64,000 nucleotides of DNA from Thiomonas sp. FB-6 (GTDB lineage: Bacteria > Pseudomonadota > Gammaproteobacteria > Burkholderiales > Burkholderiaceae_C), in NCBI RefSeq assembly GCF_000377645.1, contig NZ_KB898473.1:1-64000 (forward strand), read 5' to 3'. Below the pieces are notes generated by a model that worked only from the letters and a program-made list of their open reading frames with translations, was not told the DNA's origin and ran no database searches. Of the stretch, positions 1 through 41,001 are shown one piece after another (within the stretch, counting starts at the first letter, position 1; each line of letters starts with the position of its first letter). The position numbers were made by a program, and so were the translations under genes.

Positions 1-4567
<4,567 letters not shown>

Positions 4568-5908
4568 TCAGGCCTGGTGCGGCTCGCGCCGTAACCAGGC
4601 CACGAAGCGCTGTCCGTACACCGGCTGGCGCCACAGCAGCCACGCGGCCGCCACCAGGTTGAGCAGCGCGATGCTCAGCAACAGCACCGGCACCGCCACT
4701 CCGAAGGCCAGCAAGGCTGCGCAATAGCCGGTGCACACGATCATGTACAGCGCGTTGAGGATGTTGTTGGCCGCGATCACGCGGGCCCTATGGCTGGCCG
4801 GCGTGTGCTGCTGGATCAAGGCGTACAGCGGAACGCTGTAGACCCCGGCGCTGGCGGAAAGCCCGAACAGATCGGCCATCACCCGCCAATGCGAGGGCCG
4901 GGCGACGAAAGCCCCGACCCCCAGCAAGGGCCCGGCAGGCGCCATGGAGTGGGCGCTGAGGTACAGGTCCACGCCGAAGAGGCTCATGCCGATCGCCCCC
5001 AGCGGGACCAGGCCGGGCTCGATGCGCCCGCGCGCCAGCCATTCGCATGCCAGCGAGCCCAGGCCCACCCCCACCGAGAACACCACCAGCAACAGCGAGG
5101 CCACCTGCTCGTTGCCGCCGAGCACGTCTTTCGCGAACACCGGGAACTGGGTGAGGAACGCCACGCCGTAGAACCACATCCAGGAAATCGCCAGCAGAGC
5201 CTGCAGCAGCACCCGGTCGCGCGCGGCCAGCCGCAGATTGGCCAGGGTTTCGCGCAACGGATTCCAGCGCACCCGCAATTGCGGATCCAGTGCCGGCGTG
5301 GGGGGAATGCGCCGCGATGCCGCCCAACCCGCCAAGGCCACGAGCAGGCAGGCGCCACCGGCCAGCCACGGCCCCTGGCGCATGCTCATCAGCAGGCCAC
5401 CCACCAGATTGCCGAGCAGGATGGCCACGAAGGTGCCCATTTCGGTCATGCCGTTGCCGCCGGTCAGTTCGGCCGGGGACAAGTGCTGAGGCAGGTAGGC
5501 GTACTTCGCCGGACCGAACACGCTGGAGTGCATGCCCATGCCGAAGGCGCAGGCCAGCAAGGCCCCCAGGTTGCCGGTGGCGAAACCCCATAGCGCCAGC
5601 GCCATGATGCCGATCTCCAGCAGCTTGACTGCGCGCATCAGCCGGTCCTTCGGCCACTTGTCGGCCAGTTGCCCACTGGTGGCCGAGAACAGCACGAAGG
5701 GCAGGATGTACAACGCCGCGATCAGGTTGACCATCAGCCCCGGCGACAACGCGGCACTCGCCTGCGCGCGGTAGGTCACCAGCACCGTGAAGGCGAACTT
5801 GAACAGGTTGTCGTTCGCGGCGCCCCCGAACTGGGTCCAGAAAAAGGGCGCGAAGCGGCGTTGGCGCAGCAGCGCGAACTGGTTCGGAGCCGCGGTAGTT
5901 TGCGACAT
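4568..5908 (-). CDS. MFS transporter, LplT-like (lysophospholipid transporter family)
   Basis: 446 residues of polytopic inner-membrane protein with about 12 hydrophobic segments. The N-terminal NDNLFKFAFTVLVTY and VFGPAKYAYLPQHLSP blocks are typical of the LplT branch of the major facilitator superfamily, which flips lysophospholipids inward in E. coli. The start at 5908 (MSQTTAAPNQFALL) lies 2 bp after the stop of the upstream hydrolase gene (TGACCATG), so it reads as the last gene of the carrier-protein operon. LplT is often found alone or with acyltransferase or racemase genes. Its place here could mean it moves a lipidated or amphipathic product of the operon, or it may simply be co-transcribed. 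Substrate is inferred from the family only. Confidence 0.85.
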   Translation of the reverse strand: MSQTTAAPNQFALLRQRRFAPFFWTQFGGAANDNLFKFAFTVLVTYRAQASAALSPGLMVNLIAALYILPFVLFSATSGQLADKWPKDRLMRAVKLLEIGIMALALWGFATGNLGALLACAFGMGMHSSVFGPAKYAYLPQHLSPAELTGGNGMTEMGTFVAILLGNLVGGLLMSMRQGPWLAGGACLLVALAGWAASRRIPPTPALDPQLRVRWNPLRETLANLRLAARDRVLLQALLAISWMWFYGVAFLTQFPVFAKDVLGGNEQVASLLLVVFSVGVGLGSLACEWLARGRIEPGLVPLGAIGMSLFGVDLYLSAHSMAPAGPLLGVGAFVARPSHWRVMADLFGLSASAGVYSVPLYALIQQHTPASHRARVIAANNILNALYMIVCTGYCAALLAFGVAVPVLLLSIALLNLVAAAWLLWRQPVYGQRFVAWLRREPHQA

Positions 5909-5910
5909 GG

Positions 5911-7713
5911 TCAGCGCGTACGAAGGGTTTCCACGAAGGCCACGAAAGCCCGGAAAAGACGCTGCTTGGCGGCTTCGGTGGTGAAGGTGTGATCGCAATC
6001 GTCGAGCGTGAATACCTGGATCGCCGACGCACGCTGACCAGCCGCGACCTCGCGCGGCGACTCCTGCCGCAACAACAGGTAGCCGGGTTCGGCATGTCCG
6101 ACGAACAATCCGACCGCGACCTGCCCGGCCCGAAGCCGCCGCAGGCCCTGTCCGATCACATTGGGCTCCGCCAGTCCGAGGCGCCGCCCGATGTCCTGCA
6201 AGACCGCTCTCAGCACGGAGAGCGCGCGGCCCGTCAGCACCTTGAAGGCCGCGGCCAGGTCCACTTGCAGCGTGAGCACCTTTTTCCACTTGGCCCAGCT
6301 GCGCATGGACCGGCGATAGCGCAGGGCCTCCGCGGCTTCCAGTCCGATGCTCTTGCCCCCAAGCGGCCGACGCCCGATCACCAGGGGATTGATCATCGCG
6401 ACCGCCCGCAAGCCTCGCGCCCGCGGCTCGATGGCCCCCTGCAGGGCCCAGTAGGCCCCCGAACACAAGCCGGCCAGAACCAGGTCCCGGAATCCATGTC
6501 GATCCTGGATGTCGTCCAGCATATCCATGACGTCATGCAGGCAGGCGGCCGCGTAACAGTCATTCTCGTCGGGCACGCCGGCGACGATCCCGTCACCCAG
6601 CATGGACAGATCGACACGCACGCTGGGGACCCCCGCGCGGGCCAACTCGCGCGCCAGCCTTGCATAGAGGCGCCCGGGGCCCGTGTGATGCACCGCGCCG
6701 GCGTTGAGCAGCAGCACCAGCGGCGCGACAGCGTGATCCACGGCCGGCTCGCAAAGCACGCTCGGCAGACGACGTGCCGTGCCGAGCATCAGGCGCCGCT
6801 CCCGGTAAACCCCATTGCGCAGTTCGGTCGCGCCACCCGCAGGGCCCGGGCCAGGGAGAGCGCCGATTTGCGAATGTCCAGAGTCCGGCGGGACCCTGGC
6901 TTGTGCGGCCATCCAGTCACAGAGGTCGTCGACCGCCGCCCAGGGCACTTCGGCATCCTGCGGGCGATCGAACATGGCGGGGTAGCCGGCGAAGGCCAGG
7001 AGGTCGGGTTCGATCCCCATGTCGCGCAAGGATTCACGCAACTTCTCGTCCCGCGCCACGTCGTCGCGCTCGAACAGCAGAATCCGGCGCACGCCGCCTA
7101 GATCCCAGTCCTGCGTGCGCATCGCGGCGACCGCCTCGACAAAGGCAGGGTCAAGCAGATGACCGGCGACGCCGACCCGCGCGTCGTCGCCGGAATGCCT
7201 GGACCCCAGGGCTGCCACGGCACGCAGTTCGCGCGCGTAGGCTCGCCCGTTGGCCACCGGCGCCCACAAGGCGATCCACCGTGCGCCGGCCCGTGCGGCC
7301 GCCATGCCCGCGACGGCAGCACCGAAGCGCAGACCGATCAATCCCACATGCGAACAACCGAACTGCTCTCTCAGGAAGCTTGCCGCCCGTACGACTGCGC
7401 CAACCCAGTCGTCCAGCCGCGCATGGTCCGGATCCTCGCCCTCGGAATCACCGGCTCCCGGATAGTCGAAGCGCAGAACGACCATTCCACGCCGCGCCAA
7501 TCCGTCGGCAAGATGGAGCAGACAGCGGTGCGTGCATTCCTCCTCCGCGCCCAACGGAGCACAGATCACGACCCCAATGGCTCCACCGGTTCCATGCAAC
7601 CACCCCGCGCAGCGATGCGGCGCCTCCCCGAAAAGCACAGGTACGCGCGGCACGACGGCGACATCCCGCCGGGAGGCTTCGCTGGGCCTCGGGGCCAAGG
7701 CGGGCTCAGGCAT
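5911..7713 (-). CDS. Tandem (double) alpha/beta hydrolase: fused homologue of exosortase-A-associated hydrolases 2 and 1
   Basis: 600 residues holding two alpha/beta-hydrolase domains. The N-half (about 20-270) matches the hydrolase-2 type (compare the gene at 29020): FDYPGAGDSEGED and an elbow GLRFGAA at 127-133 in which Arg sits where the nucleophile Ser is expected. The C-half (about 300-600) matches the hydrolase-1 type (compare the gene at 28149): LNAGAVHHTGPGRLYARLAR, the elbow GLCSGA with Ser 418, and a late DDCDHTF that supplies Asp/His. The C-half therefore looks catalytically complete and the N-half does not. No signal peptide, so probably cytoplasmic. Its start overlaps the end of the GH2-like gene by 8 bp, indicating translational coupling. 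Substrate unknown; thioesterase or acyl hydrolase activity on carrier-bound intermediates is a guess. Confidence 0.85.
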   Translation of the reverse strand: MPEPALAPRPSEASRRDVAVVPRVPVLFGEAPHRCAGWLHGTGGAIGVVICAPLGAEEECTHRCLLHLADGLARRGMVVLRFDYPGAGDSEGEDPDHARLDDWVGAVVRAASFLREQFGCSHVGLIGLRFGAAVAGMAAARAGARWIALWAPVANGRAYARELRAVAALGSRHSGDDARVGVAGHLLDPAFVEAVAAMRTQDWDLGGVRRILLFERDDVARDEKLRESLRDMGIEPDLLAFAGYPAMFDRPQDAEVPWAAVDDLCDWMAAQARVPPDSGHSQIGALPGPGPAGGATELRNGVYRERRLMLGTARRLPSVLCEPAVDHAVAPLVLLLNAGAVHHTGPGRLYARLARELARAGVPSVRVDLSMLGDGIVAGVPDENDCYAAACLHDVMDMLDDIQDRHGFRDLVLAGLCSGAYWALQGAIEPRARGLRAVAMINPLVIGRRPLGGKSIGLEAAEALRYRRSMRSWAKWKKVLTLQVDLAAAFKVLTGRALSVLRAVLQDIGRRLGLAEPNVIGQGLRRLRAGQVAVGLFVGHAEPGYLLLRQESPREVAAGQRASAIQVFTLDDCDHTFTTEAAKQRLFRAFVAFVETLRTR

Positions 7714-10198
7714 CGCGCAACGTCACGGAGTGGCGCAGGTTCGCAGCGCTGCAGTGCACCCTTCCGCGGGGCGTACCGGCGCCGGCGCGCAGGCGCACGG
7801 TGCGCTCGATTCCCGGCGCAAGATGGAAGGCGTCGTCGTCGGGCTCATACCCGGGGGCGTCGATCTCCACGCCCAGCAGCAGTTCGTCGGACTGGAGGTG
7901 CAGGCAGCGATCGGCGCCATCGGCGACCATATGGAGCCGTGGCTCCATGGCGACAGGCTCCACGCGCATGCCCTGGGGGAAATGAAAGGCCTCGGACACG
8001 AGCACCCCGTCGCTGCCGATCAGGCGAGCGACCACCGCATCGTGGGACGGCGGGCCGAAGCGATAGGCATGGTTGATGTCGACGAAGTGCCCGAACAGCT
8101 CCGCCGTGCCCAGGCGCACGTACCCCGCGGACTCCACGCGCATCCTGTGCTCGGCACGGAGCGTGCGGATGCGCCCCGCCTGCCAGAGCTCCACGACCAG
8201 CGTGGCCTCGAGAACTTCCGGACGGTCGTTGAACACCAGGAAATCGCAGCCTTCGAGTCCGCGATCGTCGATCAGCAGCGCCCGCGGCGCGAGACAGCGC
8301 TTGAGCGCCCAATACGCCGGCTTGGGACGCGCGGCGGAGTCCAGCACCCCCCAGCCGGCGCCTTGCGCCAGGTCGCGCAGCCACCACACCAGGCCCCCCT
8401 GGCATCCTGAATCGGGAGCCCGCCACGCGGTGAACACCCGCGCCATGAGCTCGCCGCTGACCAGGCCCGACCAGCGCAGGTAGGCCTGCGGATCGACCAT
8501 GCGCATCTCGCGCGGGTCGGCGCGCACCAGTTCCGGGAAATAGTGGTCGCGAACGTCCTCGAAATCCCAGCCCGCGCCGGCGTCGCGGGGCACCCCCGCC
8601 TTCCAGCGGGGATCGTGCGCGCGCAGGGCGCCCAGCCCCGAGCGTTCCAGTGCCACCTGCGCCGGCACGTTGGACAGGCCCAGGCATTCCGCGGCCAGTC
8701 GCACCTTCGCCAGGCGCGCATCCGACAGGGGTCGCCGGTAGGCACCCACGCCGTAGTAGTGGCTGACCCCCGACGACACATGAAACGGCAGCGCACCGCC
8801 GGAGGGCGACGATCGCACCCAGGCACTGGCCGGAAGCATGTGCGCGTGCATGCGCTGCAGTTCCCGGGAATGGAAGGGGTGGCTCCAGGAGTCCCTCGGA
8901 AGGCCCATCATCGCCGCCTGCTGCTCGACCTCGCTGCCGCCACACACCACCGCCAGGCAGGCGTGCCGCTCCAGCCTTCGCAGGGTCTCGCCCACCTCCG
9001 CGCGCGCCTCCTCCGCGAAACCCGGATCGTCGAAGGGGTAGTCCATGTTCGCGAACAGCAGGTCCTGCCACACCAGGATGCCCATGCGATCGCAGGCGGC
9101 ATAGAACTCCTCGGACGCGTAGAGCCCGATTCCGACCACGCGCAGCATGTTCATGCCGGCCGCCACGACCCGCTCCAGGATGGTCTGCAGCGTGGCGGCG
9201 TCGGGATCGGGACGCCGCAAGTCGGCGGCTGTCCAGCAGGCGCCACGGACGAAAAGCGCGCGGCCATTGCAACGCACGGCCAGGGCGCCCTCGGGCTGAT
9301 CGAGCTCGAAGGCCTTGAAACCGAGGCGTCCACCGTCGAGCGTCACGGCTCCTCGCGGCCCTTGCAGTTCGAGCACGCAGTCGTACAGGGCAGGAACTCC
9401 ATGCGTGTGGGGCCACCAGGGATCGATTCCTTCCAGCTCGATGTCGTGAGGCTCGATCCCGTCGGCGCCCAGGTAGGCGCGATCGACGCTGCGCACGCAG
9501 GAGCCCACGCGCAGCACCACGCCCTCGCAGGCACCTCCCCCCAGCAGCGCCCAGCGGGCGCCTACGCGCAATACCGGGCGGCCGTCGCGCCAGCTCGGGG
9601 TGAGCTGCAGATCCTGCACGTCGATGGCGCGCAGGCCCTCCAGGTAGCAGGGGCGCCACGGCCCCACCATGTCGGAGCGAGGATTCCAGCTGGCGATGCG
9701 CCCCAGCAGGGTGGTGCGAAACCAGCGCAGGTTCTGCGCGTCCACCAGGGCGGTCTTCCAGCGTGGGCGCGGACGACGCGCGAGAAGCTCGGGCTCCAGC
9801 GCGGCGCACCGCAGGACCAGCTCGCGCGCACGGCCCGGCAGCGCAACCACGTGGCAGCGATGCATGTTGCGCGTTGCCGGCACGGCCGCGCCGTCGACCC
9901 AGATCTCCACCAGCGTGGCCAGGCCCTCGAAGCGCAGGCGCATGGCGTCGACGTCGTCCCAGGACGGCAACTCGCAACGGAACCACCAGTCGAAGGCGTC
10001 CAGGCCCTGTCCGGCCACCGTATCGCTGTCCAGCGCCGCGGCGACCGTGGTCGGCAGGCTGACCTCCTGCCAGCCCTGGGGCGGGAGATCGGCGGGCTCC
10101 CGGCAGGCGCCTGGCGCCGTGCGCAGCATGCACCACCCGGTGGCGAGCATCAGGCTCCGGTGCGCCTCGATATGGCGACTGGCCAGGGGCAGGCTCAT
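7706..10198 (-). CDS. Glycoside hydrolase family 2 (beta-mannosidase-like) protein, cytoplasmic
   Basis: 830 residues. The layout is that of GH2 beta-mannosidases: an N-terminal jelly-roll sugar-binding domain (about 10-190), an immunoglobulin-like domain (about 190-300), then a TIM barrel beginning at VRGACWTAADL (about 318). The barrel has NMLRVVGIGLYASEEFYAACD and ILVWQDLLFANMDYP. The acid/base motif, normally GNNE, reads GGSE (Glu 423), and AAECLGLSN (Glu 504) is the candidate nucleophile. Both glutamates may be present, but the surrounding residues are unusual. There is no signal peptide, so it would act inside the cell. A good Shine-Dalgarno (GAGGG, spacing 7) precedes ATG 10198. It could be a true glycosidase or a repurposed sugar-binding or transferase protein; its operon partners handle carrier-bound aminoacyl groups. 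Confidence 0.82.
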   Translation of the reverse strand: MSLPLASRHIEAHRSLMLATGWCMLRTAPGACREPADLPPQGWQEVSLPTTVAAALDSDTVAGQGLDAFDWWFRCELPSWDDVDAMRLRFEGLATLVEIWVDGAAVPATRNMHRCHVVALPGRARELVLRCAALEPELLARRPRPRWKTALVDAQNLRWFRTTLLGRIASWNPRSDMVGPWRPCYLEGLRAIDVQDLQLTPSWRDGRPVLRVGARWALLGGGACEGVVLRVGSCVRSVDRAYLGADGIEPHDIELEGIDPWWPHTHGVPALYDCVLELQGPRGAVTLDGGRLGFKAFELDQPEGALAVRCNGRALFVRGACWTAADLRRPDPDAATLQTILERVVAAGMNMLRVVGIGLYASEEFYAACDRMGILVWQDLLFANMDYPFDDPGFAEEARAEVGETLRRLERHACLAVVCGGSEVEQQAAMMGLPRDSWSHPFHSRELQRMHAHMLPASAWVRSSPSGGALPFHVSSGVSHYYGVGAYRRPLSDARLAKVRLAAECLGLSNVPAQVALERSGLGALRAHDPRWKAGVPRDAGAGWDFEDVRDHYFPELVRADPREMRMVDPQAYLRWSGLVSGELMARVFTAWRAPDSGCQGGLVWWLRDLAQGAGWGVLDSAARPKPAYWALKRCLAPRALLIDDRGLEGCDFLVFNDRPEVLEATLVVELWQAGRIRTLRAEHRMRVESAGYVRLGTAELFGHFVDINHAYRFGPPSHDAVVARLIGSDGVLVSEAFHFPQGMRVEPVAMEPRLHMVADGADRCLHLQSDELLLGVEIDAPGYEPDDDAFHLAPGIERTVRLRAGAGTPRGRVHCSAANLRHSVTLRDA

Positions 10199-10207
10199 CG
10201 GGCGCCC

Positions 10208-11176
10208 TCAGCCGTACCTTGCGCGCAGCGAGTCCATTGCAGCGCCCCAGCACTCGGCCATGCGGGCGATGACCTCGAGGCTCGGAGCGCGCTTGCGCGC
10301 CATGGCGCGCGCCAGCTGAAATTGAAAGGCCTTGCTGGACTCGGAGATTTCGCGCAAGGCCCGCGACGCGTCGTCCAGTCCGGGTACGCCCTGCCCACCC
10401 AGCCAGTCCAGGTAGCTGTGCGCCAGCTCGTAGCAGGCGCCGAACTGGCGCCAGGTCACGAACGCGTAGGTGTGGAAGGTCTCCATGTCGCCTTGCATCA
10501 GCCACGCGAGGTCGGCCTCGAAGCGAGGGCCGAAACTTTCGAAGGGGTTGCGATCGGGCAGTCGCCCCAGCTGGCGGCGCAGCAAGCCCAGCGAAGCCTC
10601 GCGCAGGTCCGGCCCGCGAAGCGGCTCGCGCCGCCGCTTGACGTACTCGATGTAGGGCGGAAGCATGCGCTCGTGCACCTGCTGCGTGGGCTGGAACACG
10701 GCGTCGAAGTCCTCGCCGCCCAGCTCGTGGTAGCCCTGGTTGTGGAAGTAGCCCATGCGCCGCGCATCGCGGTCCACCCGGTTCACCGCGACGGTGGACT
10801 TGACATGCGCCAGACGATAGGCCGTGCCCTGGGTGTCCGGCAGATAGAAGGAATCCATCTCCACGAGCACCGGCCGCCCCTGCCGAAGCTGCTCCTCCAC
10901 ATGCTCGAGCAGGGGGCGCCAGGGAGCCAGTTCCTCCACCTCCCACCCGTACAGCTGCTCCAGGTCGGCGTCGCGGAACTTGAAAAAGGTCCACTCGTCG
11001 CCTTCGAAATCGACACCCAGGGTGAAGGCCAGCGCGGCGCTGGGCTCGCAGCCCAGGCCGTGCAGCAGTTCGATGACCACGTCGGTGTAGCAGTTGGTCT
11101 CCGCCCAGATCCTGTCGGGACCGTGCAGGGCGTGGCGTCTGTAGGTGCCTGGATCCAGCGCAATGACCTGATGCAT
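10208..11176 (-). CDS. DUF1839 family protein, candidate aminoacyl transferase
   Basis: 322 residues, no signal peptide. The N-terminal half contains AETNCYTDVVIELLHG with Cys 29, then RPVLVEMDSFYLPDTQG (Asp 108) and YRLAHVKST (His 124), followed by MGYFHNQGYHEL. The order Cys ... PVLVxxDxFYLP ... H is also seen in the N-terminal domain of BtrH, the butirosin enzyme that moves an aminoacyl chain from an acyl carrier protein to an aminoglycoside. The likeness is my own observation by eye and not a database hit. The C-terminal half is helical and unrecognised. The gene lies 30 bp downstream of the amino acid:carrier protein ligase and 9 bp upstream of the GH2-like gene. Inference: it takes the aminoacyl group from the carrier protein encoded in the same operon. 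DUF1839 membership is fairly secure, the function is not. Confidence 0.8.
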   Translation of the reverse strand: MHQVIALDPGTYRRHALHGPDRIWAETNCYTDVVIELLHGLGCEPSAALAFTLGVDFEGDEWTFFKFRDADLEQLYGWEVEELAPWRPLLEHVEEQLRQGRPVLVEMDSFYLPDTQGTAYRLAHVKSTVAVNRVDRDARRMGYFHNQGYHELGGEDFDAVFQPTQQVHERMLPPYIEYVKRRREPLRGPDLREASLGLLRRQLGRLPDRNPFESFGPRFEADLAWLMQGDMETFHTYAFVTWRQFGACYELAHSYLDWLGGQGVPGLDDASRALREISESSKAFQFQLARAMARKRAPSLEVIARMAECWGAAMDSLRARYG

Positions 11177-11206
11177 GGGATGGATGGACGCGGGAAGGCT
11201 GCCGGC

Positions 11207-12145
11207 TCAGCTCAGGCCGAGGCGATCGCGCACGGCCTGCGGCCAGCACGCCGGATCGAGGCCGTGGGTCTTCAGCAGCGCCAGGGTGATGCGCTCGAGG
11301 CCGAAGCCGACGCAGGAGGTATGCGCTGCCTGCTCGTCCGGCCCGAGGATGTCGAAATGCCGGCCGAAATGATCCAGGTGGCAATTGCACGAAGTCACTG
11401 CGGTGGGGTGCTCCTCCGAACAGATCGGAACCACCAGCTCGTACTTCAGCGCCTGCTCGAGCTGCGTGGCCTTCATGACCTTGCCGCCTCGACCGAAGAA
11501 CGGGTCGTTGGCCAGCACGCTGGCCACCGGCAGACGCAGGGACTCGAGAAGCGCCACTCCGGTGCGAAGCCAGCGGTCGCGGTGCTCCAGCGCCTGCTCC
11601 GCCGTCCCCATGCGCACGAATTCCCGCTGGCGGAACATTTGCATGCGCGCCGGATCATCCGAAGGTTCGTGCCGGAACACGAAGGTCTCGAGATCCACCA
11701 CGCGACCCTGGTCCGGAAGTCGAGATCCGGACGCGGTCGGGTACAAGGGATAGCAGGCTGCCGGAACCAGCATCGACTCGCCGGCGCGCAAATGCCCCGC
11801 CCAGTCGTCACCCGCATCGAGCTCGGCCAGCATCCCGCGATGCTCACGCTCGTCGCCGAAAAAGCAGTGCACCGAGCCGAGCAGATCCGGGAAATTGGCA
11901 ATGTGATCCAGGCGTTGGTAGTGGGCCCGCGCGAACAGGGGCGGGAAGCGCATCACCTCGGCCTGCTGCCACGCGCCCTCGCGGCTCACCAGGTCCTCAA
12001 TGCCCTGCACGATGCGCTCGAACACGCCGCTGCGCCCGTACAGACCGCGTACACCCAGCGGGATCAGCAGGCCGGCGTGGACCAGGCGTTCCTGGAAGCC
12101 GCGTTGCGCATCGGCGAGAGCAAGCTGGGAATGGCCGTCAGGCAT
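11207..12145 (-). CDS. Amino acid--[acyl-carrier-protein] ligase (seryl-tRNA-synthetase-like, no tRNA-binding domain)
   Basis: 312 residues, a class II aminoacyl-tRNA-synthetase catalytic core without an anticodon or tRNA-binding arm. Motif 2 is visible as MFRQREFVRMGT and motif 3 as SCVGFGLERITLALL. Cys 131, Glu 175 and Cys 278 occur at the positions expected for the catalytic zinc site of the family. The TSCNCHLDHFG segment is typical. Characterised rhizobial members activate glycine or alanine and load it on the phosphopantetheine arm of a small carrier protein rather than on tRNA. The carrier protein gene two places upstream (13335) is the obvious partner. The start at 12145 overlaps the end of the dehydrogenase gene by 8 bp. 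Amino acid specificity cannot be read from the sequence. Confidence 0.92.
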   Translation of the reverse strand: MPDGHSQLALADAQRGFQERLVHAGLLIPLGVRGLYGRSGVFERIVQGIEDLVSREGAWQQAEVMRFPPLFARAHYQRLDHIANFPDLLGSVHCFFGDEREHRGMLAELDAGDDWAGHLRAGESMLVPAACYPLYPTASGSRLPDQGRVVDLETFVFRHEPSDDPARMQMFRQREFVRMGTAEQALEHRDRWLRTGVALLESLRLPVASVLANDPFFGRGGKVMKATQLEQALKYELVVPICSEEHPTAVTSCNCHLDHFGRHFDILGPDEQAAHTSCVGFGLERITLALLKTHGLDPACWPQAVRDRLGLS

Positions 12146-13322
12146 CTTTGTGCACGATCTGCATCGCCGCGTTCAAGCCGAGCAGGCGATCGTTGTTCAC
12201 CATGACCATCGTGCCGTAGGCGTCACGCAGGTGCCGGCCCAGGCTCACGTCCGAATCGTTGCGGTACGCGTTGATGCCGCCGATGATCATGGCGCGGCCC
12301 ACGAGGTCGACCAGCAGGGTCGATGTGTTCAGTTTCAGATTGTTGACCCGGATGTTGAAACCGAAGTTTCCGAAGGCGTCGATGGGAGCGCTGCCCATCA
12401 GGCCCTGGTATTCGTCGAGCAATTGCGCCAGGCCCGCGCGCATGGTCTGCAGCACCATGTCCGCCTCGGCAAGACGCGTGGCCGCGATGGGCACCGTGTC
12501 CGGAGTCTTGCGCGCCTGGGCTCGCACCACACTGCGCGCCCGGTTCATGGAGTCGATGCCGATGCCGATCCACAGCGCGGACCAGACGAGGTGAGCCACC
12601 GGATGCATGGTTCGCGCGTGGATCTCGGCGTAGGGCACCGGCAGGATCTGCTCGCGCGAACCTCGACCATGCACGGTGAAACCGGAACTGCAGGTCCCGC
12701 GGAATCCCAGCGTGTCCCAGCCGCAGATGGGCTCGAGCTCCATGTCTTCCTTGAACAGCAGGACCTGCACCTGATCCCCGGGCGCGCTGCCGGCCTCGCG
12801 GCGCGCGGTCAGCAACAGCACGTCGGCGGCGTCCATGTAGGAAATCACCGGCGCCTTCTTGGTCACGCTGAACCGGTCGCCCTGCAGTTCCACCGCGCAG
12901 ATGCTCGAACGCAGGTCGCCCCCGATGCCCACTTCCGTGGTGGCCGAGGCCAGCAGCCATTGGTGCTCGCACAGGCGCCGCGCGAATTCGGCGAAATAGC
13001 GCGAGCCCAGCGCGTGGTGGACGATGCACGCCACCTGGATCTGATGCATCGCGTACACCATCGCCGTCGCCGAGCAATACTGTCCGAGGATCTCGCACAC
13101 CTTGACGATCTGGGGCAGGTCCAGGCCCATGCCCCCATGCTCCCTCGGGACATAGGCGCCCAGCAGGCGCGCCTCGCGCAGGGCCTCGAAGGCCTCGGCC
13201 GGAAAACGCGCATCGCGGTCGACCGCGGCGGCATGCGGCGCCAGCGCCTCGCGGCCGATGCGATGGGTCAGCGCCTGGAAATCGAGAATCCCCGGCTGCT
13301 CACTGACGGCGTGTACGTACAT
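12138..13322 (-). CDS. Acyl-CoA dehydrogenase-like flavoprotein
   Basis: 394 residues with the full acyl-CoA dehydrogenase layout: helical N-domain (REHGGMGLDLPQIVKV), beta middle domain (ATTEVGIGGDLRSS) and a C-terminal helical bundle (IGGINAYRNDSDVSLGRHLRDAYG). At the place where most family members carry the catalytic Glu of an EGT motif, this protein reads VNND, so it either uses another base or has altered chemistry. It sits between the carrier protein and the amino acid:carrier protein ligase. Precedent: FkbI-like members oxidise carrier-bound substrates, for example seryl-ACP to aminomalonyl-ACP in zwittermicin synthesis. I infer an aminoacyl-carrier substrate. A Shine-Dalgarno (GGAG) precedes ATG 13322. 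First 12 bp downstream of the carrier protein gene. Confidence 0.88.
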   Translation of the reverse strand: MYVHAVSEQPGILDFQALTHRIGREALAPHAAAVDRDARFPAEAFEALREARLLGAYVPREHGGMGLDLPQIVKVCEILGQYCSATAMVYAMHQIQVACIVHHALGSRYFAEFARRLCEHQWLLASATTEVGIGGDLRSSICAVELQGDRFSVTKKAPVISYMDAADVLLLTARREAGSAPGDQVQVLLFKEDMELEPICGWDTLGFRGTCSSGFTVHGRGSREQILPVPYAEIHARTMHPVAHLVWSALWIGIGIDSMNRARSVVRAQARKTPDTVPIAATRLAEADMVLQTMRAGLAQLLDEYQGLMGSAPIDAFGNFGFNIRVNNLKLNTSTLLVDLVGRAMIIGGINAYRNDSDVSLGRHLRDAYGTMVMVNNDRLLGLNAAMQIVHKDA

Positions 13323-13334
13323 GGCGGCTCCCGC

Positions 13335-13577
13335 TTACGAGGCCTTGATCTCGTCGATGGATTCGGAGAGTGCTCGAATGCTTTCGAAGGTCTTGCGGCT
13401 CAACAGATGTTGCGGAAACTCGACATCGAAATGTTCCTCCAGCGCGAGCATCAGATTCACGGTGGTCAACGAAGTGAGACCGAGTTCATAAAGATTGGCG
13501 TCCGGCGTGATTTTTTCCGGATCACAGGACAAGCGCCCGTGCTGAAGCACGATTGTGCGAATCTGGTCGATGGACAT
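13335..13577 (-). CDS. Stand-alone acyl/aminoacyl carrier protein
   Basis: 80 residues. The motif ELGLTSLTTV holds the phosphopantetheine attachment Ser 36; the usual D-S-L is T-S-L here, a variant seen in aminoacyl carrier proteins. Four-helix carrier-protein length, acidic helix 2-3 region (ALEEHFDVEF). It is the first gene of the minus-strand operon that continues with the dehydrogenase, the amino acid:carrier protein ligase and DUF1839. A Sfp-type phosphopantetheinyl transferase is encoded about 1 kb away (14238). The upstream 99 bp is shared with the divergent thpR and contains TTGCAA and TAAGCT as weak promoter-like hexamers with a long 19-bp spacer. Confidence 0.93.
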   Translation of the reverse strand: MSIDQIRTIVLQHGRLSCDPEKITPDANLYELGLTSLTTVNLMLALEEHFDVEFPQHLLSRKTFESIRALSESIDEIKAS

Positions 13578-13676
13578 GGTGAATTGATGCTGAATGGCAG
13601 CTTAGCAGTCTAAACCCCCGGTTTTGCAAATTCAGCGCGCGCCCCCGGACTTGGGGGGGCCATCTACACTCGCCTC

Positions 13677-17153: not shown

Positions 17154-18086
17154 ATGACGCGTACCTACAAGAACACTCTGCACCGCGTGGCGCTGAACAG
17201 CGGCGTCTCCCGCTGGCTCGCCCGCCGCATCGAGGCCCCACGGATTATCACCCTGCACGGGGTTGGCGACGCCGGCTTTCCGTTGCAGGAATTCGTTCGC
17301 CTCATGGAATGGATGCGCGGCAATTTCCGCATATGTGCACTTTCGGATCTGATCGACGACATTCTGTCCCGCCGCCGTTCCGGCCCGGGCAGGGTTGCCA
17401 TCACCTTCGACGACGGACTGCGCAACCAGGTCCGGGATGCGTATCCGGTGCTGCGCTCGCTGGGACTTTGCGCAACCGTGTTCGTCTGCCCCGGCCTCGT
17501 GGAACGCGGCCAGTGGCTCTGGAACCATGAGGCCCGTGCACGGCTTCGTCGCCTGAGCCCGGAGCAACTCCGGGATTTCGCCGACTCGATGTCGGCGCCG
17601 CGCAGCGACGTGGAACCCCTGGTCGAATGGATGAAGTCTCTTCGACGGGATCGGCGCGCCACCGTCGAGCAGGCACTGCGCGACCGAACGCCGAGTTTCC
17701 AGGCCAGCGCGCAGGAACACGACAGTTTCGACATCGTGTCCTGGGAAGAACTCGCGTCGCTGGACCCGGCCGTCATGGCGGTGGGCTCGCACACGCTCGA
17801 CCATCCGATCCTGACGACCCTGGACGACGCCGAAGTCGTCCGTGAACTGGGGCAGAGCCGCAAGCTGCTCGAACAACGCCTGCAGCGCAGCGTGGATACC
17901 TTCTGCTATCCGAACGGCGCCTTCGATGCCCGGGTACGCGAGCTCACATCCAGGCATTACCGTGCCGCGCTATCCAGCGAGGACGGGGTGGTTCGCGAAG
18001 ACGAGGATCCCTTTGCCATTCATCGCATTCCCGCCTCCCCCGACCTTCACCTGACCGCCTGGCGCATGCACCGCCCCGACGCCTGA
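17154..18086 (+). CDS. Polysaccharide deacetylase (NodB-type)
   Basis: 310 residues. NodB fold with the metal-binding VAITFDDGLRNQV and GSHTLDHP motifs intact, then the CYPNGAF motif. No obvious signal peptide; a basic N-terminus (MTRTYKNTLHRVALNSG) suggests a cytoplasmic or membrane-associated enzyme. It probably removes N-acetyl groups from amino-sugar units of the exopolysaccharide. It faces the end of the minus-strand polysaccharide operon (convergent with the flippase gene), so it has its own promoter in the 206-bp region upstream, where I see no clear consensus boxes. Confidence 0.88.
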   Translation: MTRTYKNTLHRVALNSGVSRWLARRIEAPRIITLHGVGDAGFPLQEFVRLMEWMRGNFRICALSDLIDDILSRRRSGPGRVAITFDDGLRNQVRDAYPVLRSLGLCATVFVCPGLVERGQWLWNHEARARLRRLSPEQLRDFADSMSAPRSDVEPLVEWMKSLRRDRRATVEQALRDRTPSFQASAQEHDSFDIVSWEELASLDPAVMAVGSHTLDHPILTTLDDAEVVRELGQSRKLLEQRLQRSVDTFCYPNGAFDARVRELTSRHYRAALSSEDGVVREDEDPFAIHRIPASPDLHLTAWRMHRPDA

Positions 18087-18108
18087 TCCCGGGGCCGATG
18101 CGCCGCCT

Positions 18109-19635
18109 TCAAGCTCCGCGCAGGCGCTCGAGGGCCTTGCGCGCCAGGCCGCGCGTACGGGCATCCACCAGCAGGAGCAGTCCGCCGTAGAGCAGCGCGC
18201 CACCGACGATCCGCAGCCCGATGCGTTCGAGCGAGTTGACGGGGTCGATACGACTCGTCACGGCGTACATCGCGCCCGACATGAGCGCGAACTTGAGCAG
18301 GTCGGACCACGGTACGCGCAGGGATACGGTTCCCCTGCCGAAGAATCCGGTGAGCACCGTGTAGACCGTCAAGCTGCACAGCGTGGCCAGCGCGGCCCCC
18401 TCGATGCCGATGCGCCGGGTGAGAACCGCGGTAAGCACCAGGTTCACCGCGGAAGCGGTGAACACCGAGTACATGACGACCCGTGTGAGCTTGTTGATGT
18501 AGATTCCGGCGCTGAAAATCGGGGTCCCGCCGGCGACCAGCATTCCGCTGACGATATAGACGAACAGCGAGGTACTGACGGCATATCGATCCGACGCCAG
18601 CAGTCGCAGCAGATCCGGCGCCACGACCGCCATGCCGGCCACGATCGGGAAGGCCAGCATCAGGTAGTAGTGCAGCGCATGCTGGAGAAACTCCTCCGTC
18701 CTGGCGCGCCCCTGAGCCTCCCACATGCGCAGATACATAGGTACGACCGCCTGTGCGAAGGCGCCGGTCAGCACGCCCTGGAGATAGTCGCAGAAATTGT
18801 AGGCGGCGGAATATGAACCCAGGGGCCCGGGACCGAGTTCGAAATTGATGATGTAGCGCCCCCCCATGCTCAGCAGGAGTCCGGACAGTTCACTGGCCAG
18901 CAAGGGCAGCCCGAAACCCAGCATGGCGAGAAACAGCGGGCGTGAGAACCTGGAGGGGGAGAAGGCGTCGCGCCGGGCGTAATAGGCGATCAGCAGTCCG
19001 GTGGCGACGGCTTCGCTCACCAGGGTGGCGAGGAAGAACCCCCACAGGTTGCGCGCCACCGTGAACAGCACGCCGACGACGAAAGCCAGGCCCAGGTATT
19101 TGCGGATAACGGCATAGAAGCTGTACAAGCCGCTCTTCTGTTCGGCGCGCAGGAGATTCAGCATCGCACTGTCGAGCACCCGCACCAGGATCAGGGGCGA
19201 GACCGCGGCGATCAGGTACTGGATGCCTCCGTGCCCCCACCAGCGCGCCGGCATGACGGCGAACACCAGGGCGCTCAGGGCACTGGCGACCATGCCGACC
19301 CCGAGCATGCCGAACAGCACGGTCGAGAAGAACCCTACACGGTCTCCACCCCGCTTGCCTCCCTCGATTTCCGCGTAGAAACGCACGACCGACTGCTGCA
19401 GGCCGAGTTTGCCGACCCCGACCAGAAAGCCCAGCGTGACGTTGACCAGCCCCAGCATGCCGTATTCCGCGACCGTGAAGGTACGCGTGAAGATCGGAAA
19501 GGAGACCATGCTGGCCAGCGTGATCAGCAAGGTGCCCGCAGAATAGTTGGAGGTATGACGAAGCAGTCGCCATAGGCCGCCCACGTGGGAGGCCTTGTGC
19601 GCCGGCACGCCCTGCGGCGCTTCCGGGGACGTCAT
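18109..19635 (-). CDS. Oligosaccharide flippase, Wzx type
   Basis: 508 residues and about 14 hydrophobic segments, typical of the MATE/MOP polysaccharide flippase group. The conserved N-terminal SNYSAGTLLITLASMVSFPIF region is present. It would move undecaprenyl-linked repeat units across the inner membrane. ATG 19635 overlaps the TGA of the upstream glycosyltransferase by 4 bp (ATGA). It is the last gene of the long minus-strand polysaccharide operon. With a Wzy-like polymerase/ligase and a Wzc-type system it supports a Wzx/Wzy-dependent pathway. Confidence 0.9.
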   Translation of the reverse strand: MTSPEAPQGVPAHKASHVGGLWRLLRHTSNYSAGTLLITLASMVSFPIFTRTFTVAEYGMLGLVNVTLGFLVGVGKLGLQQSVVRFYAEIEGGKRGGDRVGFFSTVLFGMLGVGMVASALSALVFAVMPARWWGHGGIQYLIAAVSPLILVRVLDSAMLNLLRAEQKSGLYSFYAVIRKYLGLAFVVGVLFTVARNLWGFFLATLVSEAVATGLLIAYYARRDAFSPSRFSRPLFLAMLGFGLPLLASELSGLLLSMGGRYIINFELGPGPLGSYSAAYNFCDYLQGVLTGAFAQAVVPMYLRMWEAQGRARTEEFLQHALHYYLMLAFPIVAGMAVVAPDLLRLLASDRYAVSTSLFVYIVSGMLVAGGTPIFSAGIYINKLTRVVMYSVFTASAVNLVLTAVLTRRIGIEGAALATLCSLTVYTVLTGFFGRGTVSLRVPWSDLLKFALMSGAMYAVTSRIDPVNSLERIGLRIVGGALLYGGLLLLVDARTRGLARKALERLRGA

Positions 19636-20789
19636 GACGAGCGCCCCTGGTACACCCCGACCAGCAGCGCGAGCACTCGATCGGGGGCGAAGCCCTGCTC
19701 GACCGACAGCCGCGCGTGGCGCCCGAGTCGCGCCCGAAGCTCGGGCTCGTCGAGCAGTTTCTGGATCGCGGCGCCAAGCGCGGCAACGTCCTCGGCGTCC
19801 ACCAGGAGGCCGGAATGTTCGTGCTCGATCACGTCCTCGTGCCCGCTGATGCGCGTGGCGACGACGGGCAGTTGCGCCGCCATCGCCTCCAGCACCGCAT
19901 TGGGCAGGCCCTCCTGGCGCGAGGCCTGGACGTAGATGACCGCCTCTCGGAGCAGGGGCGCGACATCCGCCAGCATGCCGGGGAAGTCGACGGAATCGGA
20001 AACACCGAGACGTACGGCCAGTTCGCGCAGTGCCGCGTGTTCGGGGCCGTCTCCCGCCAGGACGAGGCGAGCGTGGCCACGGCGCGGCAGCAGGCTCCAG
20101 GCCCGCAGCAGGATGTCCAGGCCCTTGACGGCGACATGCCGGCCCGCGAACACCACCTTGGGGGGCTCGCGGACTTCGGAACGGTTGCCGACAAAGCGCC
20201 CGCAATCGACGGCATTGGGAATGCGATGCAGCCGCCCCGGAGGGTAGCCGGCCTCGCGCAGCATGGTCAGGGTGTGATGGCTGATGCACTGGAAGGCGTC
20301 CAGCCTGCGGGCGCCCGCGTTGAGCAGCCGATGCTTGATCTTGTTGCGCAGTCCCGGGTCGAGCAGCCCGCCGTCGAATTCCGCCGCCCCGGAGACCTTG
20401 ACCACGACCGGCACGCGCAGCCAGGGCTTCAACCATCCGATGGCGGCCGCCAGGTTGTGCATCATGTGGACATGGATGGCGTCGAAGCGGGTTCGATGCC
20501 CGTACAGCCACGCCGCCACACGGAAGTTCAGCCAGAGAGCCCCGAGCCCCTTGACTCGCGGATACCCCAGGCGGCGTACCTCGATGCCGTCGACCTCCTC
20601 GCGTGCCAGTTGGCGTCGATCGAGGCGCGGCGCGAGGATACGCACGGAATGTCCCGCCGCCACGAACTCCCGCGCCAGCAGCCGCGCCTGCATCTCGGCG
20701 CCGCCGGTCGCCGGATAGCGACCGTCGATCACGAAAAGCAGGCGCAGGCAAGACTCTGGAGACTTCGGACGAGGATCGGCGGCAGCCAT
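19632..20789 (-). CDS. Glycosyltransferase, family 4 (GT-B)
   Basis: 385 residues, complete GT-B fold. N-terminal DGRYPATGGAEMQARLL, mid-protein IPNAVDCGRF, and the donor-binding region ASRQEGLPNAVLEAMAAQLP with the EX7E-type glutamates are visible. It adds one sugar to the growing lipid-linked repeat unit. ATG 20789 is the first start before conserved sequence, but there is no clear Shine-Dalgarno; a TTG start further upstream is possible. It ends in an ATGA overlap with the flippase gene. An 79-bp space separates it from the DUF218 gene. Donor sugar unknown. Confidence 0.88.
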   Translation of the reverse strand: MAAADPRPKSPESCLRLLFVIDGRYPATGGAEMQARLLAREFVAAGHSVRILAPRLDRRQLAREEVDGIEVRRLGYPRVKGLGALWLNFRVAAWLYGHRTRFDAIHVHMMHNLAAAIGWLKPWLRVPVVVKVSGAAEFDGGLLDPGLRNKIKHRLLNAGARRLDAFQCISHHTLTMLREAGYPPGRLHRIPNAVDCGRFVGNRSEVREPPKVVFAGRHVAVKGLDILLRAWSLLPRRGHARLVLAGDGPEHAALRELAVRLGVSDSVDFPGMLADVAPLLREAVIYVQASRQEGLPNAVLEAMAAQLPVVATRISGHEDVIEHEHSGLLVDAEDVAALGAAIQKLLDEPELRARLGRHARLSVEQGFAPDRVLALLVGVYQGRSS

Positions 20790-20868
20790 GCGAAAAGGAG
20801 GACCAGCGAACGGGTCAACTGCGCAGCCTAGCTTTCGGTGCGGGCTGCGGCCATCCCTTGATCGGGTG

Positions 20869-21618
20869 TCAGCGGAGCAAGACCCACCGATAATAGACAG
20901 ATCCGAAGTACTCGTGGAGCGCGAACTCCATCTTTCGCAGTGCGCCCCGGCTCGGGATGAGCATGTCCCAGGACCCGTCGTCCACGGCCTGGAAGTCCTG
21001 CGGCAGCGCGCATACACCGAGCCCCGCACGGTGGAAGCTGAATACCGCTCGGGGCATGTGGTAGGCCGACGTGACGAGATAGATGGGCCGGCGGCCTGCG
21101 CCGCGCAGCATGCGGGCCACCGCGCGAGCACTGCCCCAGGTAGTCCTGGATTCACGCTCGACCAGGATGCGGGTGGCCGGGAAGCCCAGGCGTCGTGCCA
21201 GTTGCGCCATGAGGTCGGCTTCGCGTTCGGTGGATCCGTTGCCGCCGGAGATCAGCAACTCGCTCCCGGGCACCGCCTTCGCGACACGAACCCCGGCGAT
21301 CAACCGGCGCAGGCTTTCGCCGCTCAGCGAGCCGACGGCGGCCGGGTCCGCGACATCCACATGCAGCCCCCCCGCGAGGACGACCACCATCGCGCCGTCA
21401 GGCGGCGGGCCGCAGGAGGCGGCGAGTCGTCGCGCCTGGCTTTCCAGCCCGCGCAGCGCGAGGTTCGCGGCCCAGGGAGATCCCACGACCCAGTACAGCA
21501 GGAGCACGGCCCAGCAAGCCAGGCGCAGGCGCCTGGACGTTCGTGACGTCAGGCTCCCGAGCGCCAGGCCAAGCAGCGCCCATCCGATCCACGAAAAGGG
21601 GGAGGCCAGGAAGTCCAC
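20869..21618 (-). CDS. DUF218/YdcF-ElyC-like membrane protein
   Basis: About 249 residues. Two N-terminal membrane segments are followed by the DUF218 domain: VVVLAGGLHVDV, ISGGNGSTEREADLMAQLA, ESRTTWGSARAVA and YLVTSAYHMPRAV. Relatives such as ElyC and SanA act in envelope or peptidoglycan-precursor metabolism, and DUF218 genes recur in exopolysaccharide loci. The start is uncertain: GTG 21618 (VDFLASPFSW) sits 14 bp after the stop of the upstream glycosyltransferase and leads directly into the first membrane segment, while an ATG at 21681 would overlap that gene by 50 bp. Confidence 0.75.
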   Translation of the reverse strand: MDFLASPFSWIGWALLGLALGSLTSRTSRRLRLACWAVLLLYWVVGSPWAANLALRGLESQARRLAASCGPPPDGAMVVVLAGGLHVDVADPAAVGSLSGESLRRLIAGVRVAKAVPGSELLISGGNGSTEREADLMAQLARRLGFPATRILVERESRTTWGSARAVARMLRGAGRRPIYLVTSAYHMPRAVFSFHRAGLGVCALPQDFQAVDDGSWDMLIPSRGALRKMEFALHEYFGSVYYRWVLLR

Positions 21619-21631
21619 GCGAAAGGCCGGC

Positions 21632-22771
21632 TCAGTGCGCGGCCCCCGATGCCCATCGCAGATACACGCCCTCGTCGCCATCCACCCACGATTGCCGGGA
21701 AAACAGGCGCCTCGCCCTTTCGTGGCCGGCGGCTCCCATCACCGCGCGCACCTGCGGCTGCGCCATGTGCAGCATCTTGTCGCGCAGATCGCCGACGTTG
21801 GCGGCCTCGAAGAGCAATCCGGTCACGCCCTCTTCCACGACCTCGGGACAACCTCCGATGCGCGGCGCGATGACCGGTCGGGATGCCGACATGGCCTCGC
21901 GCGCCGAAAGCGGGAAGGACTCCCGCGTGGACGCGAGCACGAACACATCCAGAAGCGCCAGGTGCGAGGCGATATCGCGCTGCATGCCGGTGAAGATCAC
22001 CTCTCGGCTCAGGCCCAGCGAATCCACCTGCTCGCGCACCTGGGGCAACAACGGGCCGTCGCCGATGACCACGAGCCGCGCGTCCGGCTGCTGCTGCACC
22101 ACGTCGGCGAAGGCATCGACCAGGTAGTGGTGCCCCTTCTCCTCCGAAAGGCGCGCGACGATGCCGTAGACCAGATGGCGCCCCGGCAACAATCCATAGC
22201 GCGACGCCAATTCCGCGGCCTGGGAGGGACGCGCCAGGCGCTCGATGTCGATGCCGCTGTGGATCACGGCGCTGCGCGAATCCGCCAGTCCATGGGCCAG
22301 CAGGCGGTTGCGCTCGTAGTGGGATTCGAAAATCACGAAATCCGCGCAGCGGCGCAGGATGAGAGCCGCACGCTGGAAATTGCGCGGATTGTGGATATTG
22401 TGGATGGTGGTGACGATGGGCACGCGCTTGCCCGTGGACGCCACCCGGTAGCCGGTCGGAACCAGGCGCAGCGCCGCGTAGGCCACCATGGACGAACGGA
22501 CCGACTGCGGCGCGACCAGATCGATCTTGTGCTCGCGCACCAGTCGACGCAGGCGGGCAGCGGCGACGGCCAGCTTGCGCGGGTCCCGGAAGTGAAAGTC
22601 GATGTCGATGAATCGCGCGCCGCGGGCCTGGAGCTCGGGCAGCAGCACACCCTGCGTCGTGGCCACCCACACGGTATGCCCGCGTGCGCAAAGGTCCTCG
22701 CTCAGAATCAGCAGGTCGGACTGGACACCCCCGATCCCGAAGGGTTCGGTCATCAGATACAGAAGGTTCAT
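21632..22771 (-). CDS. Glycosyltransferase, family 4
   Basis: 379 residues. GT-B glycosyltransferase: N-terminal EPFGIGGVQSDLLILSEDL, VTTIHNIHNP, then the donor domain with YGIVARLSEEKGHHYLVDAF, VIGDGPLLPQV and ASTRESFPLSAREAMSA. Cytoplasmic face of the inner membrane. The start overlaps the stop of the upstream gene reading order (ATGA, 22768-22771 shared with the deacetylase). Part of the long operon and likely adds one residue of the repeat unit. Donor and linkage are not readable. Confidence 0.88.
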   Translation of the reverse strand: MNLLYLMTEPFGIGGVQSDLLILSEDLCARGHTVWVATTQGVLLPELQARGARFIDIDFHFRDPRKLAVAAARLRRLVREHKIDLVAPQSVRSSMVAYAALRLVPTGYRVASTGKRVPIVTTIHNIHNPRNFQRAALILRRCADFVIFESHYERNRLLAHGLADSRSAVIHSGIDIERLARPSQAAELASRYGLLPGRHLVYGIVARLSEEKGHHYLVDAFADVVQQQPDARLVVIGDGPLLPQVREQVDSLGLSREVIFTGMQRDIASHLALLDVFVLASTRESFPLSAREAMSASRPVIAPRIGGCPEVVEEGVTGLLFEAANVGDLRDKMLHMAQPQVRAVMGAAGHERARRLFSRQSWVDGDEGVYLRWASGAAH

Positions 22772-23622: not shown

Positions 23623-23635
23623 CGGGGAAGGCCCC

Positions 23636-26229: not shown

Positions 26230-26233
26230 GCCT

Positions 26234-29844: not shown

Positions 29845-29877
29845 GGTCGTTGACGCGGAGTCTGAGCGCGCCACGAC

Positions 29878-30771: not shown

Positions 30772-30779
30772 GATCGTCC

Positions 30780-32333: not shown

Positions 32334-32436
32334 GATTGTCCAGGCGCGTCAGCGCCCATTATTCCTGAAGCAATAGGTCGTGAACAGTTCCATGCATCGG
32401 CATGTCCCGGGCAGATGTTCCCCGGCGCCCGCGCAT

Positions 32437-34464: not shown

Positions 34465-34513
34465 GAACGACCCGTGGCGCCGGGCGGATTCCGTCGGAAC
34501 TCCGCTGCGCCGG

Positions 34514-36130: not shown

Positions 36131-36194
36131 GAAGCGCTCCCCAGATCGAGGCGCGACACGCCGCGCCGACGACCGATCAGCATAGTCGGACGAA

Positions 36195-38571: not shown

Positions 38572-38642
38572 AGCCCGCTTGCGGCGCGCGCCCGGGTGCG
38601 GGCGCCGCGCCTTGTCCCCCAACCCTACTTGAATGGTGATCT

Positions 38643-39923
<1,281 letters not shown>

Positions 39924-39933
39924 GGAGCGGAGC

Positions 39934-41001
<1,068 letters not shown>

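Follow-up and report, generated by a model that had tools for sequence, protein, structure and literature searches.

A six-gene cassette around an amino acid:[carrier protein] ligase in Thiomonas sp. FB-6, and its proposed role in moving carrier-bound aminoacyl groups to sugar amines

The first 64,000 nucleotides of contig NZ_KB898473.1 of Thiomonas sp. FB-6 (positions 1-64,000, referred to here as the window; residue numbers are those of its proteins) contain a run of seven genes around an amino acid:[carrier protein] ligase, and the question raised by this locus is what these genes produce together. A preliminary description of the DNA had regarded all seven as one system, in which an aminoacyl unit, perhaps oxidised on a carrier protein, is passed to a sugar-containing acceptor and the product is exported by the last gene. 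The comparisons reported in this paper reduce the system to six genes without the exporter. In the reading preferred here, held at barely better than an even chance, the six genes oxidise a carrier-bound aminoacyl unit and attach it through an amide to a sugar that belongs to an exopolysaccharide or a related glycoconjugate. Taken by itself, aminoacyl transfer from the carrier to an amine is fairly probable, and the chance that the acceptor is related to a polysaccharide lies a little above even.

The extent of the system was established by comparison within the genus. Seven open reading frames follow one another on the minus strand with gaps of 12, 30, 9 and 2 bp and two overlaps of 8 bp each, and the dense one-strand packing first described, with no gap above 30 bp, is borne out by the coordinates. 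The last frame encodes an LplT-like MFS transporter (4568..5908, minus strand), which matches LplT and the N-terminal part of PRK06814 below their cut-offs and exceeds that of Pfam MFS_1. The ligase is above cut-off in 4 of 25 same-genus genomes, and a search of 16 genus genomes found close copies of the transporter in 10. The neighbour of the transporter is tgt, both in the window and in seven genus genomes in which neither DUF1839 nor an above-cut-off ligase was found; of these seven, G014 shows a weak match to the ligase, and completeness is 86% for G003 and 84% for G004. In two same-genus genomes (G002 and G013), the transporter is directly followed by a gene that we take to be ThpR-like, and the site is empty: homology with the window stops on the left at 5887 and restarts on the right at 13664, and the empty sites hold 92 and 104 bp between these two points. 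The 7,776 bp missing from both genomes (5888..13663) hold exactly six genes, from the carrier to the double hydrolase. The same six genes occupy the same site in G019. In G005 the LplT-ThpR site is empty, and the six genes are found within a polysaccharide cluster near a tyrosine kinase and Wzz, about 12 kb from the transporter. Only the carrier, ligase and double hydrolase are present in G017, beside tgt. The presence or absence of the six genes as a unit argues that they work together and that the transporter is not a member. The transporter is part of the chromosomal backbone, and as a cassette exporter it was rejected on this same-genus comparison; the seven genes are not upheld as one functional unit, and the export step finds no support in the kin comparison and empty sites. 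The cassette itself is best explained as a transferable six-gene module, for which no mobility gene was seen.

The arrangement is also found far beyond the genus. Genome contigs were scanned with an alignment of nine ligases, which gave at least 592 stretches, 533 of them encoding a relative. The best 80 of these 533, together with five plasmid loci, form a set of 85 loci in which close ligases are over-represented and Burkholderia, Azospirillum and Methylobacterium are frequent; some of its records bear the titles Planctomycetes, Verrucomicrobia, Acidobacteria, Gemmatimonadetes or Acidimicrobiales. A core of five genes (carrier, flavoprotein, ligase, DUF1839, GH2) occurs in this order at 75 of the 85 loci, and by this ordered recurrence the core arrangement is more than chance. 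Counted singly, the acyl-CoA dehydrogenase (ACAD)-like flavoprotein is present at 83 loci, the carrier and DUF1839 at 82 each, GH2 at 76, the N half of the hydrolase at 49 and its C half at 47, so that the neighbourhood first proposed recurs in its core, with the LplT-like gene at just 3. Among the ten loci without the full core, the contig ends at most about 0.8 kb from the last cassette gene in four (L026, L038, L079, L083) and begins inside the ACAD gene in L086. GH2 is absent from L066 and L072 despite enough flanking sequence, and L022 holds the carrier, ligase and double hydrolase only. Two deviating loci adjoin other genes: L040 lies beside condensation-domain and FkbM methyltransferase genes, and L051 beside an ABC transporter gene.

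Two genome samples chosen without ligase similarity, 250 genomes of the order and 398 of the phylum, give a similar picture for the pair of ligase and DUF1839. The order sample has the ligase in 10 genomes (7 over cut-off) and DUF1839 in 6, adjacent to the ligase in all 6. In the phylum sample the ligase occurs in 44 genomes (28 over cut-off) and DUF1839 in 16, and from the coordinates it lies within about 130 bp of the ligase in all 16, one of which (G463) has an in-frame stop in that ligase. The linkage would fail if such ligases almost never neighboured DUF1839, and this is not so, as they adjoin in 16 of the 28 over-cut-off genomes, or 16 of 44 with weak matches; a large class without DUF1839 nevertheless exists, comprising 12 of the 28 over-cut-off and all 16 below-cut-off genomes. 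Eight of those twelve, of Bradyrhizobium type or similar (L199-L206), were examined. ACAD adjoins the ligase in every one of them, a weak carrier match lies on the opposite strand in six, and matches to DUF1839, GH2 or the hydrolase appeared in none. This simpler class seems to include Bll0957. It can be seen that the cassette arrangement is real, widespread and strongly conserved.

The first two components are readily assigned to families. The carrier protein (13335..13577, minus strand; 80 residues) scores 97.7 bits against NF005480 (cut-off 72), and its phosphopantetheine serine, Ser36 in the motif GLTSL, is kept in all 54 aligned non-redundant sequences, the window's included. The ligase (11207..12145, minus strand), which resembles class II aminoacyl-tRNA synthetases (aaRS), scores 430.6 bits against NF005479 (cut-off 357). 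Its residues C131, E175 and C278, presumably the metal-binding set, are found in 50 of 50 non-redundant sequences including that of the window, as are R158 and E160, and R285 is found in 49; these arginines and the glutamate we take to have the usual class II motif roles. The nearest PDB entries are 3mey and 4h2w (E 6e-69), the latter being Bll0957, an enzyme whose biochemistry has been studied. Ligases of the Bll0957 type likewise exceed the NF005479 cut-off, keep the Cys/Glu/Cys set and have a carrier gene nearby; their Bradyrhizobium-type loci consist of ACAD and ligase (6 of 8 with the weak carrier match), whereas the cassette of the window adds DUF1839, GH2 and the hydrolase. In Bradyrhizobium, the proteins of bll0957 and bll0958 (acd) are both reported as 3.0-fold in a phaR mutant (PMC10888616). 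Other gene contexts of the ligase are found on plasmids. In Priestia aryabhattai (L161, 7127-15686), carrier, ACAD and ligase are accompanied by holo-acyl carrier protein (ACP) synthase, ATP-grasp, alanine permease and alanine racemase genes without DUF1839, which looks like a different product from the same trio. In Streptomyces (L166, 4287-9108), a distant ligase lies with carrier, ACAD, 3-hydroxyacyl dehydrogenase and acyltransferase genes, a cluster that we take to resemble aminomalonyl-carrier supply.

The fourth gene encodes the DUF1839 protein (10208..11176, minus strand; PF08893, 408.4 bits, cut-off 22.5), a papain-fold protein and probable amide-forming acyl transferase. Its AlphaFold2 model, built on an alignment of 48 sequences, has a predicted local distance difference test (pLDDT) value of 93. 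In a Foldseek search of the PDB, the first 19 hits belong without exception to the AziU2-U3 complex, CtaG or CcbD, at E 3e-7 to 1.5e-4 with TM-scores of about 0.5-0.6 and mostly full-length alignments, and the next match has E 0.05. C29, H145, E106 and D108 are present in 56 of 56 sequences, and position 128 is T or S in all 56. A weak BtrH_N match (19.8 bits) lies below cut-off. Butirosin assembly (BtrJ, BtrI, BtrO, BtrH) follows the same order of activation, on-carrier modification and papain-fold transfer to an amino sugar; it differs in using another ligase class and another flavoprotein, and the cassette is without a decarboxylase. A 2023 survey has described DUF1839 as papain-like with a C-(T/S)-H triad and suggested acyl-CoA-dependent glycan processing (PMC10318531). 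As for the three fold matches, CcbD, an enzyme of celesticetin biosynthesis, receives carrier-bound proline on its Cys, where it is attacked by the amine of a thio-amino sugar (a thiooctose) (PMC12945683); CtaG, called a peptidyl transferase, is proposed to transfer the acyl group of one carrier to an amine borne by a second (PMC6772006); and AziU3/U2 is functionally an aziridine synthase (PMC12559475). The modelled fold thus points to carrier-linked small-molecule chemistry, with amide formation in two of the three matches. With CcbD/LmbD, CtaG and AziU3/U2, DUF1839 has in common a fold that covers most of its sequence, conserved Cys and His residues and an operon encoding a stand-alone carrier; it differs from them in the lack of a sequence match, in its proposed C-(T/S)-H triad and in activation by an aaRS-like ligase. 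Second DUF1839 genes that do not directly adjoin the ligase were also observed (L010, 17752-18639; G182:C159; G581:C2:2215276-2216190).

The ACAD-fold flavoprotein (12138..13322, minus strand; PF02771), the probable oxidiser of the carrier-bound aminoacyl group, has a model with a mean pLDDT of 89. Foldseek placed the monooxygenase TdsC first (E 1.8e-18) and butyryl-CoA dehydrogenase second (1.9e-17), and the fold comparison did not separate a dehydrogenase from a group D flavin monooxygenase (DszC, TdsC). H93, H103 and H244 are present in 51 of 51 sequences. Acyl-CoA dehydrogenases proper carry their catalytic Glu near a C-terminal RD...YEGT motif, where the window protein reads LRD...NNDR. 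Across the 51 sequences no Glu past E286 is conserved at the classical C-terminal base position, and D367 and D378 are conserved. That the oxidation is a hydroxylation is a guess.

The remaining two genes encode hydrolytic folds. The GH2 beta-mannosidase-like glycosidase (7706..10198, minus strand; PF22666, 33.5 bits, cut-off 27) is nearest in structure to 5n6u (E 4e-31) and 2je8 (E 2e-27). E423 and E504, presumably the acid/base and nucleophile glutamates, are kept in 48 of 48 sequences; E423 falls within the 2je8 alignment, and E504 was assigned by eye. No signal peptide was seen on inspection by eye. In the double alpha/beta-hydrolase (5911..7713, minus strand), the N half is TIGR03101-like (69.7 bits, cut-off 202.75) and the C half TIGR03100-like (76.2 bits, cut-off 168.45). 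Arg occupies the nucleophile position of the N half in 50 of 50 sequences, and Cys that of the C half in 49 of 49, the window included in each. The exosortase A (XrtA) hydrolases 1 and 2 are likewise paired folds with Cys and Arg at these positions: among the 30 TIGR03100 loci that score best, Cys occurs in 29 (the remaining one does not align; eight antisense or unaligned rows were dropped before the count), and Arg in both exosortase-type hydrolase 2 proteins examined. The cassette pair differs in being fused into one protein and in lying below both family cut-offs. At one exosortase-type locus (L212), the hydrolase pair lies a few kb from an AMP-forming ligase (TIGR03098) and a pyridoxal phosphate decarboxylase (TIGR03099). 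Another Cys/Arg hydrolase pair of the window (28149..29874, minus strand; TIGR03100/TIGR03101-like, below cut-off; motifs GFCSG and GLRLG) is located within an exopolysaccharide cluster.

From these features the following pathway is proposed. The ligase would adenylate a small amino acid and load it onto the carrier phosphopantetheine, which is the known activity of its family. The flavoprotein would then oxidise the aminoacyl group on the carrier, most likely by hydroxylation. Cys29 of DUF1839 would take over the acyl group and hand it to the amine of an amino sugar in the manner of CcbD, a step proposed because of the fold, the conserved residues and the strict linkage to the ligase. The glycosidase may remove a beta-linked sugar from an intermediate or from the acceptor in the cytoplasm, and the fused Cys/Arg hydrolase pair may perform a second acyl transfer or a release. 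The acceptor would probably be a precursor of an exopolysaccharide or related glycoconjugate. The earlier proposal of a carrier-bound, perhaps oxidised aminoacyl unit directed to a sugar acceptor therefore gains from the DUF1839 fold, the GH2 catalytic pair and the recurrence, and loses its export step. A more far-reaching version is tentative and stands well below even odds: a lincosamide-synthetase-like decoration of exopolysaccharide amines with an oxidised aminoacyl group, powered by an aaRS-like ligase, would form a new class of charged matrix modification, gained with a six-gene cassette that in Burkholderia apparently lies between the cyclic di-GMP (c-di-GMP) regulators of a biofilm polysaccharide.

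The proposed source of the acceptor is the exopolysaccharide cluster of the window (17154..41001), which was recognised by the family matches of its proteins. It encodes Wzx, a weak Wzy-like protein, Wzz, a tyrosine kinase just below the XrtA-type cut-off, glycosyltransferases of families GT4 and GT2, a Bac_transf initiating sugar transferase, a UDP-sugar dehydrogenase and three polysaccharide deacetylases, which could expose acceptor amines. A fusion of an AAA-ATPase to a UDP-GlcNAc 2-epimerase-like domain (32437-34572) was also observed in this cluster. With window proteins as queries, at least one polysaccharide gene was found near 37 of 74 cassette loci vs 0 of 13 controls. The 74 loci are 68 of the 85 (those of at least 16 kb) plus L141-L146, and the controls are contig starts from six cassette-bearing genomes, of which two starts measure no more than about 5 kb. 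Burkholderia accounts for many of the loci, L018 and L020 come from relatives within the genus, a single genome supplied both L141 and L142, and L023 and L024 seem to recur as L144 and L145. With loci that are not independent and controls of this kind, these counts serve as support and not as a significance test. On a Tsukamurella plasmid (L162, 5740-16463), carrier, ligase and double hydrolase lie in a polysaccharide cluster with a YdcF family gene, and no ACAD, DUF1839 or GH2 match was found in the available stretch.

In Burkholderia cenocepacia (L008, 9376-17864), the core lies between a CRP-like gene and an activator of sigma-54 with a VpsR domain, followed by glycosyltransferases. According to the published numbering, BCAM1349 is berA and BCAM1342 is berB (PMC9684580). 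To judge from synteny and domains, the core probably sits in the berA-berB gap beside the bep cluster. In the literature searched, outside which most subscription papers fall, no paper mentions BCAM1343 to BCAM1348 and a single one mentions DUF1839. Sigma-54 control of the cassette, suggested by these CRP-like and VpsR-domain neighbours, was considered and dropped, as a scan for -24/-12 elements was unconvincing: at least 9 of 11 positions matched upstream of the carrier gene in 7 of 80 loci vs 2.85% of random stretches, while the CRP-like gene had 8 matching positions of 11 in its upstream region and the window had 7.

Several observations weigh against an oxidised aminoacyl group linked to polysaccharide. 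The activities of the cassette proteins are predicted throughout. The best fold match of DUF1839, AziU3/U2, makes aziridines, so that the fold alone is no proof of amide formation, and confidence in carrier-to-amine transfer was lowered slightly on this account. A search of the PDB with the DUF1839 profile up to E 10 returned no CcbD, CtaG or AziU2-U3, and a link from DUF1839 to CcbD through sequence was dropped for lack of a match; moreover, the triad proposed for DUF1839 is C-(T/S)-H vs Cys-His-Glu in CcbD. The Bradyrhizobium-type ligase class is without DUF1839 and GH2, and its specificity therefore need not carry over to the cassette. At a second exosortase-type locus (L213), none of the six scanned proteins is a ligase or decarboxylase. 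The Bep polysaccharide of B. cenocepacia, beside whose genes the cassette seems to lie, is published with no amino sugar or aminoacyl group, from a measurement in sodium deuteroxide (NaOD) that would strip esters (PMC7084887), and a screen for wrinkly colonies reports, in its abstract, the bep cluster only (PMC3584217). Lastly, no polysaccharide gene of the tested kinds was found in the available stretch of 37 of the 74 loci.

The strongest alternative keeps the chemistry and changes the product to a small diffusible glycoconjugate, such as a lincosamide- or butirosin-like signal, osmolyte or antibiotic. CcbD, CtaG and AziU3/U2 all act in small-molecule pathways, which agrees with such a product, as do the 37 loci just mentioned, the Rhizobium gallicum plasmid copy beside nif and ACC (1-aminocyclopropane-1-carboxylate)-deaminase genes and the Priestia plasmid variant, which has ATP-grasp, alanine permease and racemase genes and no DUF1839. 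A diffusible product is nevertheless considered unlikely, since among the genes tested no dedicated exporter recurs, polysaccharide genes are commoner near cassette loci than in controls, and a GH2 enzyme together with exosortase-type hydrolases suits envelope glycans.

Considerably less probable is a pathway that ends in an unusual carrier-bound building block (dehydro, keto or aminomalonyl-like), in which DUF1839 forms no amide and the sugar genes are incidental. The aziridine chemistry of AziU3/U2 would fit this end product, as would the association of ACAD and ligase, mostly with a carrier, in Bradyrhizobium-type genomes without DUF1839 and the trio in Priestia. The Streptomyces cluster, with its acyltransferase domain, is presumably also of this kind, being like aminomalonyl-ACP cassettes. 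The frequent presence of GH2 and DUF1839 in the cassette class (76 and 82 of 85 loci) and the amide formation in two of three fold matches speak against it. Finally, a unit of seven genes with product export by the last one is very improbable. The transporter does start 2 bp past the hydrolase stop on the same strand, and in two close relatives (L018, L019) it again comes after the cassette; yet it adjoins tgt in the seven genomes where no cassette was found (two of them 84-86% complete), is distant from the cassette in G005 with the adjoining site empty, and was not found in the available stretch of 82 of the 85 loci.

Amide-linked decoration of a polysaccharide-related sugar, as preferred here, has a precedent in the literature. 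In a note in proofs, Iyer et al. 2010 linked the ligase to a carrier, a redox enzyme, the uncharacterised Atu2574, a glycosidase and liposaccharide genes, and predicted that the Atu2574 protein joins an amino acid by an amide to a cell-surface amino sugar and that the redox enzyme alters the aminoacyl moiety, probably through a monooxygenation (PMC2922099). Atu2574 would, to judge by how it is described and where it lies, be a DUF1839 protein. To call the system undescribed, as was done at first, is therefore too strong, since the neighbourhood and much of the chemistry had been predicted (PMC2922099). The gene set and predicted chemistry are similar to ours; the note in proofs itself is without fold evidence, module limits and hydrolase residues. 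In the literature searched (the 2010 PNAS ligase paper lies outside it), no functional study of the cassette was found. Nor did the texts consulted relate DUF1839 to this fold, describe the Cys/Arg pair of hydrolases, delimit the module to six genes, exclude the exporter, recognise ligases that lack DUF1839 as a class, count neighbouring polysaccharide genes or place the core between berA and berB. If the proposed pathway is true, it would give the ligase family a concrete pathway and DUF1839 a function, it would imply aaRS-derived chemistry in envelope or biofilm glycans, and the product would be findable as a cassette-dependent aminoacyl-sugar when isolated without alkali.

Some further copies of the cassette are found in unusual surroundings. 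Two contigs titled as Klebsiella pneumoniae metagenome-assembled genomes, perhaps mislabelled, carry the cassette together with polysaccharide genes (L028, L037). In Phyllobacterium (L164, 13409-15208), the double hydrolase follows right after the core on the opposite strand and adjoins plasmid repABC. The copy on the Rhizobium gallicum plasmid (L009, 1517-17458) lies between nif/fdxB and the ACC-deaminase genes and is without the hydrolase. Next to the transporter of the window, the tgt open reading frame (3053-4567) has about 130 extra N-terminal residues ahead of the TGT domain, and its true start is probably near 3450.

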